A DNA stretch of 64,000 nucleotides. It comes from Rhodococcus pyridinivorans. GTDB lineage: Bacteria > Actinomycetota > Actinomycetes > Mycobacteriales > Mycobacteriaceae. The translations under genes and the position numbers were made by a program. The stretch is from assembly GCF_900105195.1 (NCBI RefSeq), contig NZ_FNRX01000002.1, positions 1,488,001 through 1,552,000 on the forward strand, given 5' to 3'. This document shows positions 48,458 through 52,144 of the stretch, one piece after another. The notes below the pieces were generated by a model that made no database searches, had not been told where the DNA came from, and saw only the letters and a list, made by a program, of their open reading frames with translations. Positions within the stretch are counted from its first letter, which is position 1, and every line of letters starts with the position of its first letter.

Positions 48458-49231
48458 TCAGGCGAGCAGTCGGTAAAGACCGATCAGCCCCACCACGACG
48501 ATCACCGTCCGCAGCGCGACCGGCGACAGGCGTCGGCCGTAGTGCGAGCCGAGATAGCCACCGATCAAAGAACCCACCGCGATCAGTGCGGCCACGGTCC
48601 AGTCGATCCGGTCGAACGCCACCAGGATGTACGCGCACGCTGCCACGACGTTCACCACCAGCGACAGCAGATTCTTCACCGCGTTCTGTCGCTGGATGTG
48701 GTCGTGCAGCAACGCTCCGAACAAACCCATGAGCAGAATGCCCTGCGCCGCCGTGAAATAGCCGCCGTAGATGCCGACGGCGAAAGTGCCGACGACGAGC
48801 AGTGTCATCCGCACCGGTCCGAGGTGGCCGTCGGCGTCGCCGCCGGTTCTGCGGGCAACCCACGCCTGGATCTTCGGCTGGAACACGACGAGGGTAAGGG
48901 CCAGGAGGAGCAGGATGGGTACGACCGTCTCGAAGACGGTCTCGGGCAGGTGGAGCAGGAGCCACGCTCCTACCAGTGCCCCGCAGAACGACGCCGGGAT
49001 CTGCCATCGCAGCCGCTCCCATTGCCCGCGCAGCTCGCGCCGATACCCCCAGGTGCCTGACACACCTCCAGCGACCAGGCCGATCGCGTTGGACATCGTC
49101 GCGGTCACCGGGGGCACACCGAACGCGACGAGCGTCGGGAAGGTGATGAGAGTGCCGGATCCGACGAGGGAGTTGATCGCTCCGGCGCCCAGTCCGGCCA
49201 ATGCGACGAGGAAGAGTTCGAGCGGGGTCAC
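48458..49231 (-). CDS. TSUP (TauE/SafE) family membrane transporter
   Basis: 257 residues, seven or eight spans. GLGAGAINSLVGSGTLITFP and FAVGIYGGYFTAAQGILLMG are the two repeated family signatures; VVNVVAACAYILVAFDRIDW follows. TSUP proteins export or import sulfur-containing anions or organic acids; substrate not readable. GTG 49231 has TAGACT seven bases upstream (leaderless). Convergent with the cobU fusion gene. Confidence 0.88.
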   Translation of the reverse strand: MTPLELFLVALAGLGAGAINSLVGSGTLITFPTLVAFGVPPVTATMSNAIGLVAGGVSGTWGYRRELRGQWERLRWQIPASFCGALVGAWLLLHLPETVFETVVPILLLLALTLVVFQPKIQAWVARRTGGDADGHLGPVRMTLLVVGTFAVGIYGGYFTAAQGILLMGLFGALLHDHIQRQNAVKNLLSLVVNVVAACAYILVAFDRIDWTVAALIAVGSLIGGYLGSHYGRRLSPVALRTVIVVVGLIGLYRLLA

Positions 49232-49238
49232 CGAGGCG

Positions 49239-49244
49239 AGTCTA
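49239..49244 (-). promoter_or_regulatory. -10 element for leaderless TSUP gene mRNA
   Basis: TAGACT on the minus strand, seven bases before GTG 49231. Confidence 0.45.
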
Positions 49245-49378
49245 CGGCGTACCGAAACCGGCCTTGTCGTCGATGCCGGGGCACCGCGTCGACATCGACA
49301 TCGGTCTCGACGAGGAACGGATTTCCGTCACAGTGAGAGAAACCTTTCCGCGGCGTGCCGCACTCCGTAGCTTTAGCC

Positions 49379-49475
49379 GCGACCATCCAGAGCGACCGAG
49401 AGACCTGGCTCTACGACGTCGCAGCAACCCCCCGTACGCGGGTGCGGGTGCTACCGCCGGGACCCACGTCTGCAC
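49379..49475 (+). promoter_or_regulatory. SAM riboswitch (S-box type)
   Basis: ACCATCCAGAGCGACCGAGA, then GACCTGGCTC, GACGTCGCAGCAACCCCCC and GGGTGCTACC occur in the order of the SAM-I core: P2 as GAGC...GCTC, the GCAACC of P3/J3-4, and GGTGCTA after P4. I cannot find a convincing 3' strand for P1, so the aptamer may be damaged. It precedes the truncated flavin oxidoreductase gene by about 45 bp. Confidence 0.72.
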
Positions 49476-49517
49476 CCTCGATTTCCCACACCCCGCATTC
49501 CCGAAAGGCCCATTCCG

Positions 49518-49989
49518 ATGGCTCCCGCCCACAGAACGTCGCCGTGAGCACGTCCACCCGGGCACGACAGTCGAAGCGGTCGAGGCGTACCGGTCGGCGT
49601 TCCGTCCGTCGCCGATCCTGAGGAAGCCCTACGTGGTGGTCTCGGCCGACGCGGTGGTCGCCGACGACGACGCCACCGCACGCGAGTTGGCGTCGACCTA
49701 CGGGCATTGGACGCACAGCATCCGCTCGGGCCACGGCGCGATCCCGTACCCGGACCCAGAGACCACCCCGCCGCTGACCGACGAGGAGCGAGCCCTCGTC
49801 AACGACCGCATCGTCACCCAGTTCGTGGGGGCGCCGAGCTCGGTGGCGGAGCGTCTCGACACCCTCCGCCGAGTAACGGACGCCGACGAACTCGTCGTCA
49901 CCTCGGTCACCCACGGCCACGAGGACCGTCTGCGTTCCTACGAACTGCTGGCCCGCGAATGGGGGTTGGCGCGGGTCCGCGCCGCGTGA
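49518..49989 (+). pseudogene. LLM-class flavin oxidoreductase, N-terminal two-thirds deleted
   Basis: ATG 49518 with AAAGG upstream opens a nine-codon reading (MAPAHRTSP) that stops at once. About 12 bases later another frame encodes the C-terminal part of a luciferase-like monooxygenase: VEAYRSAFRPSPILRKPYVV, VSADAVVADDDATARELAST, VTQFVGAPSSVAERLDTL and TSVTHGHEDRLRSYELLA. The FMN-binding barrel core is absent. I read this as a deletion joining the true start to the C-terminus out of frame. The SAM riboswitch upstream suggests the intact gene served sulfur metabolism, such as sulfonate use. Confidence 0.7.
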
Positions 49990-49996
49990 TCGTTCG

Positions 49997-50054
49997 TCGA
50001 GACCGGTGTTGTTGTCGATAACTCGCGAGAAATCGACAACAACACCGGTCTCGA
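49997..50054. repeat. 58-bp near-perfect palindrome, left flank of the DUF559 gene
   Basis: The 23-bp arms 49997-50019 and 50032-50054 are exactly complementary; the left arm starts TCGAGACCGGTGTTGT. The 12-nt centre AACTCGCGAGAA contains CTCGCGAG, so the whole is almost one palindrome. It starts seven bases after the stop of the oxidoreductase fragment. The same 16-base start recurs in the palindrome at 51010. Confidence 0.9.
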
Positions 50055-50064
50055 TTCGGCGCGT

Positions 50065-50093
50065 CTGGGGATAACGTCGAAAGTTCTCCACAG
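50065..50093. promoter_or_regulatory. Pair of inverted DnaA-box-like sequences
   Basis: TGGGGATAA (50066-50074) and TTCTCCACA (50084-50092) each differ by one base from the DnaA-box forms TGTGGATAA and TTGTCCACA. They form an imperfect inverted repeat (CTGGGGATAAC/GTTCTCCACAG). It lies between the left palindrome and the DUF559 gene. A binding role is conjecture. Confidence 0.35.
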
Positions 50094-50144
50094 ACGGCGG
50101 ATTCGGGGTACCGGAGGGACCGGAGACCGGGCACGCTCGCGCTC

Positions 50145-51005
50145 ATGGTCGACTTCCACGAACCGTTCGCCGGCACCGATGCGCTGGCGGCCGGATCGGT
50201 GACGCGGTACCGACTCCGGCACCACTTCGTGAAGCTGCATCGCAATGTGTACGTTGCTCCGGGAGTCGAAGCGACCGCGCTGCTACGCGCGAAGGCAGCC
50301 TGGCTGTGGGCGGGAGGTAGAGGGGTACTGGCCGGACCGTCCGCAGCCGCCGTGCACGGGACGCGCTGGCTCGACGCGTCGTTGCCCGCGGAGATCGTGC
50401 GGCCCGGGAAACTGCACTCGACGCCCGGCATCATCGTTCGCAGCGTCGACGACATCGAATCCTGCGTCGTCGACGGAATGACGGTGACGATACCGGCCCG
50501 AACGGCCTTCGACCTCGCGCGCGGTGCGGACCTCGATCGGTGCGTCGAAATGGTGGACGCGCTCTGCAATGCGACCGGAACGAAGGTCCACGAGATCGAA
50601 GCGGTGGCCGCTCGGAACAAGGGCGCTCGGCACCTCGCGTCCGTACGAAAGGTTCTCGAACTCGTCGACGGAGGTGCCGCGTCACCACCGGAGACGCACA
50701 CGCGGCTGCTGATCGTCCGATCCGGTCTGCCCGTGCCGGAGACGCAGATCGAGATCTACGACGGTGGGCGGTTCGTGGCACGCGCGGACATGGGCTGGAA
50801 GCAGTGGAGGGTCCTCGTCGAGTACGACGGTGCGCAGCACTGGACCGATCGAGTACAGCGGACCATCGACATCGACCGCTATACGTTGCTGTCGGAGCTC
50901 GGTTGGACCGTGGTGCGTGTCGGCGCCGACCTGCTGTATCGGCGACCTCAAGTCCTCGTCGAAAGGGTGCGACGCGCGTTGCACCGCGCCGGTGCCCTCG
51001 GGTGA
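50145..51005 (+). CDS. AbiEi-type winged-helix plus DUF559 (Vsr-like) putative nuclease
   Basis: 286 residues. The N-terminal 80 ([36 protein letters not shown]) resemble the AbiEi antitoxin-type winged helix. The C-terminal 90 form a restriction-endonuclease-like DUF559 domain: [20 protein letters not shown], then [20 protein letters not shown] (putative D...E-x-D metal site), and [20 protein letters not shown]. No partner toxin gene is adjacent. Framed by two related palindromes and without an evident strong ribosome site. Probably a soluble DNA-acting protein; whether it is defence, mobile or domesticated is unknown. Confidence 0.8.
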
Positions 51006-51009
51006 CCTG

Positions 51010-51066
51010 TCGAGACCGGTGTTGTGTGCGATTTTTCGGTGAATTTCGAACACAACGTCGGTCTCG
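51010..51066. repeat. 57-bp imperfect palindrome, right flank of the DUF559 gene
   Basis: The left arm, starting TCGAGACCGGTGTTGT at 51010, pairs with the right arm ending at 51066 with only a few mismatches, some G-U compatible. The centre is T-rich. It begins five bases after the DUF559 stop. Shares its first 16 bases with the palindrome at 49997 but differs in the centre, so it is a diverged copy rather than a recent duplication. Confidence 0.85.
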
Positions 51067-51130
51067 ACCGACGACGAGCGTCCGGTGGGCATACTCGGGG
51101 ACATCGGAACGCGAACGGTCGGAGGAATCT

Positions 51131-52144
51131 GTGGCTCAGGGTTTGAAGTTGGGATACAAGGCGTCGGCAGAGCAGTTCGGGCCGCGCGAGCTGGTGGAGT
51201 TGGGTGTGTTGGCCGAGGCGCACGGGATGGATTCGGCGACGGTGTCGGATCATTTCCAGCCGTGGCGGCACAACGGTGGGCATGCGCCGTTCTCGTTGGC
51301 GTGGATGACCGCTGTGGGGGAGCGCACCGAAAGGTTGCAGCTGGGCACGAGTGTGCTCACGCCGACGTTCCGGTACAACCCGGCGGTGATCGCGCAGGCC
51401 TTCGCGACGATGGGGTGTCTGTATCCGGGACGGATCTTCCTCGGGGTCGGCACCGGCGAAGCACTCAACGAGATCGCCACCGGCTACGCCGGCCAGTGGC
51501 CGGAGTTCAAGGAACGCTTCGCCCGGCTGCGCGAATCGGTGCGGTTGATGCGTGAGCTGTGGCGCGGAGACCGGGTCGATTTCGAGGGCGAGTACTACAC
51601 CACCAAGGGGGCGTCGATCTACGACGTGCCCGAAGGCGGCATCCCGGTCTACGTCGCCGCCGGTGGCCCGGTCGTGGCCCGCTATGCCGGACGCGCGGGG
51701 GACGGGTTCATCTGCACCTCGGGTAAGGGCATGGAGCTCTACACCGACAAGCTGTTGCCGGCCGTCGCCGAGGGGGCGGAGAAGGCGGAGCGGGATGTCG
51801 CGGGGATCGACAGAATGATCGAGATCAAGATCTCGTACGACACCGATCCGGACAAGGCGTTGGAGAACACCCGCTTCTGGGCGCCGTTGTCGCTCACGCC
51901 GGAGCAGAAGCATTCCATCGATGATCCGATGGAGATGGAGGCGGCGGCGGATGCGTTGCCGATCGAGCAGGTCGCCAAGCGGTGGATCGTGGCGTCGGAT
52001 CCGGACGAGGCGGTCGAGCAGGTCAGGGCGTATGTCGAGGCGGGGTTGAATCATCTGGTGTTCCACGCTCCGGGTCATGATCAGAAGCGGTTCCTGGAGT
52101 TGTTCGAGCGCGACCTCGCCCCGCGCCTGCGCGCACTCACCTGA
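51131..52144 (+). CDS. fgd: F420-dependent glucose-6-phosphate dehydrogenase
   Basis: 337 residues, luciferase-like TIM barrel. Oxidises glucose-6-phosphate and reduces coenzyme F420 in the cytoplasm. [38 protein letters not shown] (active-site His and Trp), VGTGEALNE (catalytic Glu) and [20 protein letters not shown] match the mycobacterial Fgd. GTG 51131 lies five bases after GGAGG. Followed by two hairpins and then pta-ackA, as Rv0407-Rv0409. Confidence 0.95.

Follow-up and report, generated by a model that had tools for sequence, protein, structure and literature searches.

In REP/RAYT (TnpA-REP) systems, a dedicated nuclease gene is flanked by clade-specific palindromes, solo copies of which lie mostly at the 3′-ends of genes; these systems are chromosomal and of low copy number. 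The same organization was found in Rhodococcus pyridinivorans, within a window (the whole stretch of DNA that was analysed) of 64,000 nt: a nuclease gene is flanked by clade-specific palindromes, with solo copies elsewhere, mostly at gene 3′-ends, and it too is chromosomal and of low copy number. The parallel with REP/RAYT drawn in the initial annotation therefore stands for the organization but not for the enzyme, which is an AbiEi-Vsr/EDxHD fusion, while RAYTs are Y1 HUH transposases. The present palindromes also differ in being ~57 nt long and few per genome, and a given site may be found in any of four states (full, solo, empty or inverted). A second system for comparison is the EDxHD homing endonuclease I-Bth0305I, described as acting as a dimer on a target of nearly 60 bp (PMC3943268), a length that was counted as a likeness. 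Further shared traits are the catalytic fold (predicted here) and the existence of occupied and vacant sites. Unlike I-Bth0305I, the present element lies outside introns and phages and has an AbiEi-like N-terminal part; moreover, if the palindrome is the target, the gene does not interrupt it but sits between two whole copies.

Other relatives share only parts of the element. The N-terminal fold resembles that of the AbiEi type IV antitoxins, and by analogy with them paired inverted repeats would be read: Rv2827c is described as binding 23-bp repeats spaced 13 bp (PMC7319586). In contrast to these antitoxins, the present protein is fused to a nuclease and no AbiEii partner was found among the neighbours scanned. 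The nuclease fold is that of Vsr and the DUF559 nucleases (PMC12907096 describes a DUF559-containing protein of Caulobacter as Vsr-like), but these differ from the present case, which has cognate flanking palindromes, an AbiEi-like part and no methylase among the neighbours scanned. The match to Tn7 TnsA was below a telling level. A literature search of titles and abstracts, with few subscription journals covered, found no pairing of a DUF559 gene with cognate palindromes and no described role for the Actinomycetes relatives of the gene. New stem-loop families are reported from mycobacteria (PMC2267715). The element thus works like both a REP/RAYT system and a homing endonuclease gene, failing one defining feature of each, and looks like an undescribed self-spreading DNA element. 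Our preferred reading, to which we give a probability of about 0.57, is that it is both REP/RAYT-like and homing-like, and that its AbiEi domain would read the palindrome arms while its nuclease would cut the centre.

The whole element spans ~1.07 kb in the order palindrome, DnaA-box-like spacer, gene, palindrome (Table 1). The initial annotation had placed a 58-bp palindrome 7 bp after the preceding gene fragment, and it was found exactly there, the preceding stop codon being at 49987–49989. The second palindrome, reported as 57 bp long and 5 bp after the gene, does follow the gene, although both figures were off by one. That the two begin with the same 16 bases and have diverged in the centre was confirmed: both start with TCGAGACCGGTGTTGT, and they are 73% identical over 59 nt. 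The arms of the left palindrome, 29 nt each, are 93% complementary. RNA folding gave −47.1 kcal/mol (z −8.85) for the left palindrome and −35.7 kcal/mol (z −4.33) for the right one, values equalled by 0 of 200 shuffles in each case. Membership of a known RNA family was rejected; there was no Rfam match at the gathering score, and weak microRNA-like and RNA-OUT matches were simply matches to a long hairpin.

Table 1. Features of the element; positions are those of the window.
Feature	Position	Strand	Remarks
Left palindrome, type A	49997..50054		58 nt; 7 bp past preceding stop codon
DnaA-box-like inverted pair, GGGGATAAC-N7-GTTCTCCACAG	50067..50093	+	Between left palindrome and ORF
ORF, 286 aa, AbiEi-like + DUF559 nuclease	50145..51005	+	Pfam, PADLOC, predicted fold
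AbiEi-antitoxin-like part (residues 1-175), a presumed reader of DNA	50145..50669	+	
Residues 178-284, Vsr/I-Bth0305I-like nuclease domain	50676..50996	+	
Right palindrome, type A	51010..51067		58 nt; 4 bp past ORF stop

The protein scored above the Pfam cut-off for DUF559 and below it for MTES_1575; at E up to 1 the scan returned these two and no transposase family. PADLOC models for AbiEi matched the N-terminus weakly, and fold prediction places an AbiEi-like N-terminus in front of a nuclease of the Vsr/I-Bth0305I type, that is, the EDxHD/Vsr-type catalytic fold of a homing endonuclease. The Y1 HUH tyrosine transposase that marks a RAYT was not found, the two parts of the protein being AbiEi-like and Vsr-like. 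In the nuclease domain, across 36 sequences, H232 was invariant and E183, D215 and D235 were each at least 90% conserved. At the sequence level, the protein shows purifying selection (dN/dS 0.07 between the window ORF and the 98%-identical copy L026, and 0.07–0.27 in 13 of 14 chosen pairs). The nearest database protein, 95% identical, is from Rhodococcus rhodochrous. A TALE-repeat likeness of residues ~109–190 (best E 2.4e-13) was set aside; because no single stretch passes alone, this TAL-effector-like profile is probably an artefact of summing over repeats.

Five neighbouring ORFs scanned with Pfam matched TauE, Bac_luciferase (two of them), CobU/Lactamase_B and PTA_PTB; neither an AbiEii-type nucleotidyltransferase toxin nor a methylase family was present among the five, and the Tn7 families besides TnsA were likewise absent from the neighbouring ORFs scanned. 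These results bear on a model in which the palindromes would serve the AbiEi-like part as operators, with the nuclease as a regulated toxin or anti-phage effector. The PADLOC matches and the position of the left palindrome, ~90 bp upstream of the ORF, agree with it, as does the autoregulation of AbiEi relatives through inverted repeats (described in PMC7319586). However, a matched palindrome also lies just past the stop codon, copies elsewhere occupy the 3′-ends of genes, and the expected toxin family is missing from the ORFs scanned, which leaves the operator model very improbable.

The association of gene and palindromes was followed across relatives, palindromes being scored with a script of our own. 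Within the genus, a homologue (E up to 1e-60) was found in 11 of 18 genomes, at 21 places; nine had a palindrome at both ends, seven at one end (one of these with a weak palindrome, another at a contig edge) and five none (L033, L038, L039, L040 and L041). The usual plan was one palindrome 72–115 bp upstream and another 5–17 bp downstream. For the best 80 of 454 relatives, from Rhodococcus, Mycobacterium, Nocardia, Tomitella and others, 26 loci had an upstream palindrome with a score of at least 13 and 23 had a downstream one; among control windows, 19 of 2014 contained one. In a class-wide set, which included five loci (L301–L304 and L307) from genomes outside the order, 18 of 29 loci had one at either end, compared with 0 of 209 windows. 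Merging these sets gave 120 non-redundant loci (all 80 named loci, 13 of the 21 from the genus and 27 of the 29 class-wide ones; eight genus loci were left out because a contig end cut them, because they were truncated or because they duplicated a named locus). A strong palindrome was present at one or both ends of 61 and at both ends of 25, while 1440 random window pairs matched for size and locus gave 19 and 0, respectively. When proteins were clustered at 70% identity, 35 of 62 clusters held at least one palindrome-bearing locus. Sequence comparison thus shows a strong association of gene and palindromes. The predicted co-occurrence was borne out, although homologues without flanking palindromes, which the initial annotation would have taken as refuting its idea, do exist: no strong palindrome was detected at 59 of the 120 loci. 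As in REP/RAYT systems, cognate palindromes flank the gene, but some homologues lack them. The proposal of a palindrome-associated DUF559 unit is nevertheless supported by matched palindromes far above chance, by solo copies and by some orthologous sites that lack the palindromes.

Relatives of the gene (E up to 1e-25) were found in 143 of 296 sampled genomes of the class, and one genus holding Mycobacterium loci had 12 genomes with at least eight scored copies each. Phages and plasmids held almost no copies: two weak matches in 50,697 phage records (E up to 1e-5) and one in 72,556 plasmid records (E up to 1e-20). The gene was therefore rejected as phage or plasmid cargo, and no vehicle between cells was seen; it is a widespread chromosomal element of Actinomycetes.

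The arms of the palindromes differ between clades and match between the two ends of one element. For the 25 loci with both ends scoring at least 11, the best match of an end was its own partner in 14, and the partner was within the best four in 24; in the sole exception, L042, the upstream match was wrong. Palindrome similarity tracked protein identity over 56 loci (Mantel r 0.36, reached by 0 of 1000 permutations); between loci it was high where the proteins were more than 70% identical and hardly above background where they were less than 60% identical, a trend that would also follow from inheritance of the whole element. The two ends are neither strictly direct nor strictly inverted repeats, both of which were rejected: among the 25 loci the direct alignment was better in 12 and the inverted one in eight, with five ties. 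In 34 type-A palindromes, 88.2% of cells pair, a value partly built in because the palindromes were preselected by score, and 12 pairs had changed on both sides. Covariation was 0.255 versus 0.141 for shuffled controls, which leave shared ancestry in (0 of 500), and did not exceed 0.094 on sliding; on 31 palindromes it was 0.249. Conservation extends over about 20 outer pairs, whereas the centre varies freely. The covariation shows that the symmetry is maintained, whichever strand form is used.

Solo palindromes were present in the genome of origin. In the window, the arm motif GAGACCGGTGTTGT occurred six times with up to two mismatches (0.57 expected), four of them inside the two palindromes. 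In the whole genome (5.26 Mb) it had 18 matches with up to one mismatch and the reversed motif none; three were in the window element, eight in five solo palindromes and seven outside any palindrome. At least five type-A solo palindromes thus accompany a single type-A gene, in line with the expectation that palindromes also lie elsewhere without the gene, and solo copies of the same palindrome are a REP/RAYT trait. The paralogue L002, 70% identical and in the same genome, has its own palindrome pair with a different arm, GTTCGGGGAGGTTGTG, which also has solo copies. Since the arms of window element and paralogue differ within one genome, the arm goes with the gene and not with the genome. Eleven mycobacterial genomes gave 4–29 matches to their own arm motif, against 0–3 for the control. 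Single-arm searches with one mismatch were noisy in coding DNA across the genus and were used for paired arms only. The palindromes of L263, L264, L266, L267 and L268 form a sub-type of A with the arm GACCGACGTCGTGTGCGA or one near it, and at L049 (~1497–1690) type-B and type-A solo palindromes start ~130 bp apart.

The setting of the palindromes raises the question of whether they are bidirectional terminators or insulators that came to flank a mobile gene, as well as to lie at the ends of other genes, and that do not interact with the protein. The set comprised 38 distinct palindromes, some of which were ends of elements or represented a single site in several relatives. Classification was possible for 35 of them: 14 lay between convergent genes, 18 between tandem and three between divergent ones. 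Thus 32 of the 35 adjoin at least one gene 3′-end, and 27 of these 32 are 3–25 bp from the stop codon. On the other hand, no T run follows the G+C-rich stem of either window palindrome, and a terminator scan of 11 kb gave four sites versus 3.4 expected, two of them partial stems within the palindromes. A separate hairpin already stands behind the gene at the L014 site, and the arms are common within an element clade and matched between both ends. We therefore hold it decidedly unlikely that the palindromes are terminators and nothing else; because they sit at terminator positions, a secondary terminator role is likely enough, and solo copies may have one, but this leaves the clade-specific arms unaccounted for. 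The objection that they might be widespread ordinary terminators thus holds for their position, mostly just after stops, but explains neither the clade-specific matched pairs nor the full, solo and empty states.

These states were read at orthologous sites. The window site lies between the luciferase-family fragment and the gene called fgd in the initial annotation. It holds a full A element in G000 and G008, a full but oppositely oriented B-prime element in G013, a solo A palindrome in G015, a solo B palindrome in G007 and in G005 (where the luciferase fragment is missing) and perhaps a remnant in G012. A decayed A element lies between other neighbours in G003. The paralogue site, readable in seven of 18 genomes (its flanks are non-adjacent in the other 11), was full in G000, G005 and G008, full and inverted in G007, solo in G015, truncated in G013 and partly deleted in G003. 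Among 59 genomes with the Mycobacterium site, four matched the whole element and three part of it (G333, G342 and G361), and one (G359) had a single palindrome; none was present in the seven short-gap genomes read (gaps of 17–42 bp), and none of that type in the nine larger-gap genomes read. For some orthologous sites, such as these seven, the prediction that empty sites lack palindromes therefore held. At L050 a palindrome separates the stop codons of two convergent genes, which in G015 directly adjoin each other, and half of it is kept in G003. L050 versus G015 and the Mycobacterium site were the best cases, but no target-site duplication or exact boundaries were obtained. G005 and G013 lack a type-A gene but still contain type-A palindromes. 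At the level of sequence, both the cognate pairing and the turnover at fixed positions are shown.

Five inverted pairs at three sites had both flanks matched; their genes were 59–69% identical (mean 65.6%) and their flanks 75–90% (mean 85.8%), which points to replacement by a diverged element of opposite orientation. Part of this gap reflects faster evolution of the gene, since same-orientation pairs show it too (68.2% for genes versus 77.2% for flanks, n = 105). In the inverted pair L002/L036, by contrast, the gene (81.6%) fell between its flanks (92.3 and 73.3%), which shows inversion, with no sign of replacement.

Two further sites also varied between relatives. The L014 site, behind a gene that we take to be rpsR, has a solo A palindrome in G000, G007 and G008 and nothing in G015, and in several relatives (L038–L043) it is occupied by a DUF559 gene of type D. 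The L012 site has a solo A palindrome in G000 and G005, whereas in G008 and G013 its place is taken by a different, type-D-like palindrome.

In the mechanism that we propose, two monomers would bind the two arms of ~20 nt, one each, and the nuclease domains would cut the variable centre. Repair from an occupied copy would then leave the gene with a palindrome on each side; the symmetry of the site would allow both orientations. If the two ends recombined, the gene would be lost and a single palindrome would remain. By analogy, the geometry of the Rv2827c and I-Bth0305I targets counts in favour of such homing-like behaviour. This mechanism does not account for the arrival of palindromes at entirely new sites, which would be a REP/RAYT-like step. 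In a rival reading, the nuclease would mobilize the palindrome itself, as a short repeat that is non-autonomous, and the gene would just happen to lie between two copies, without homing. The excess of type-A solos over the one type-A gene, the covarying stems, and the chromosomal location and purifying selection, both also features of RAYTs, agree with this; however, the fold is Vsr-like, and movement of palindromes alone does not predict that one site alternates between solo, full and inverted full. We consider it rather unlikely. The cognate palindromes give this common gene family a testable target, the pairing would be a second case, unrelated to REP/RAYT, of a nuclease with dispersed palindromes, and the many natural reader-target pairs could allow AbiEi-type DNA recognition to be decoded.

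The spacer carries a further motif. The strict form TT[AG]TCCACA was found upstream in 39 of 93 loci, compared with three of 3660 control windows, and the looser form T[TC]NTCCACA, the only one that the window spacer fits, in 50 of the 93 (28 of 56 loci with a detected palindrome and 22 of 37 without). The strict form occurred in three of the 29 class-wide loci and in none of five distant paralogues of the genome of origin. The motif lies ~67–78 bp before the ORF, and an inverted pair was seen in eight of 127 loci. In sequence it resembles the DnaA-box consensus. Since the palindromes change between clades while the spacer motif does not, it is a candidate site for a host protein, possibly DnaA. 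More tentatively still, the element may be class-wide and an independently evolved selfish one. It would then encode a homing nuclease in which the AbiEi reader and the palindromic target diversify in concert. Its palindromes would designate the 3′-ends of genes as landing sites for both orientations, and the DnaA box would couple its expression or its copying to replication.

Both genes adjoining the element belong to the luciferase family. The ORF before it (49201–49989) matches only the C-terminal part of the family; the portion retained in relatives is ~49549–49989, which G005 lacks. The gene after it (51131–52144) has a 99%-identical second copy at G000:C2:1097811-1098804, whereas the counterparts in G005 and G008 show 93% identity to this gene or its second copy; the pair at 99% identity has perhaps undergone gene conversion.
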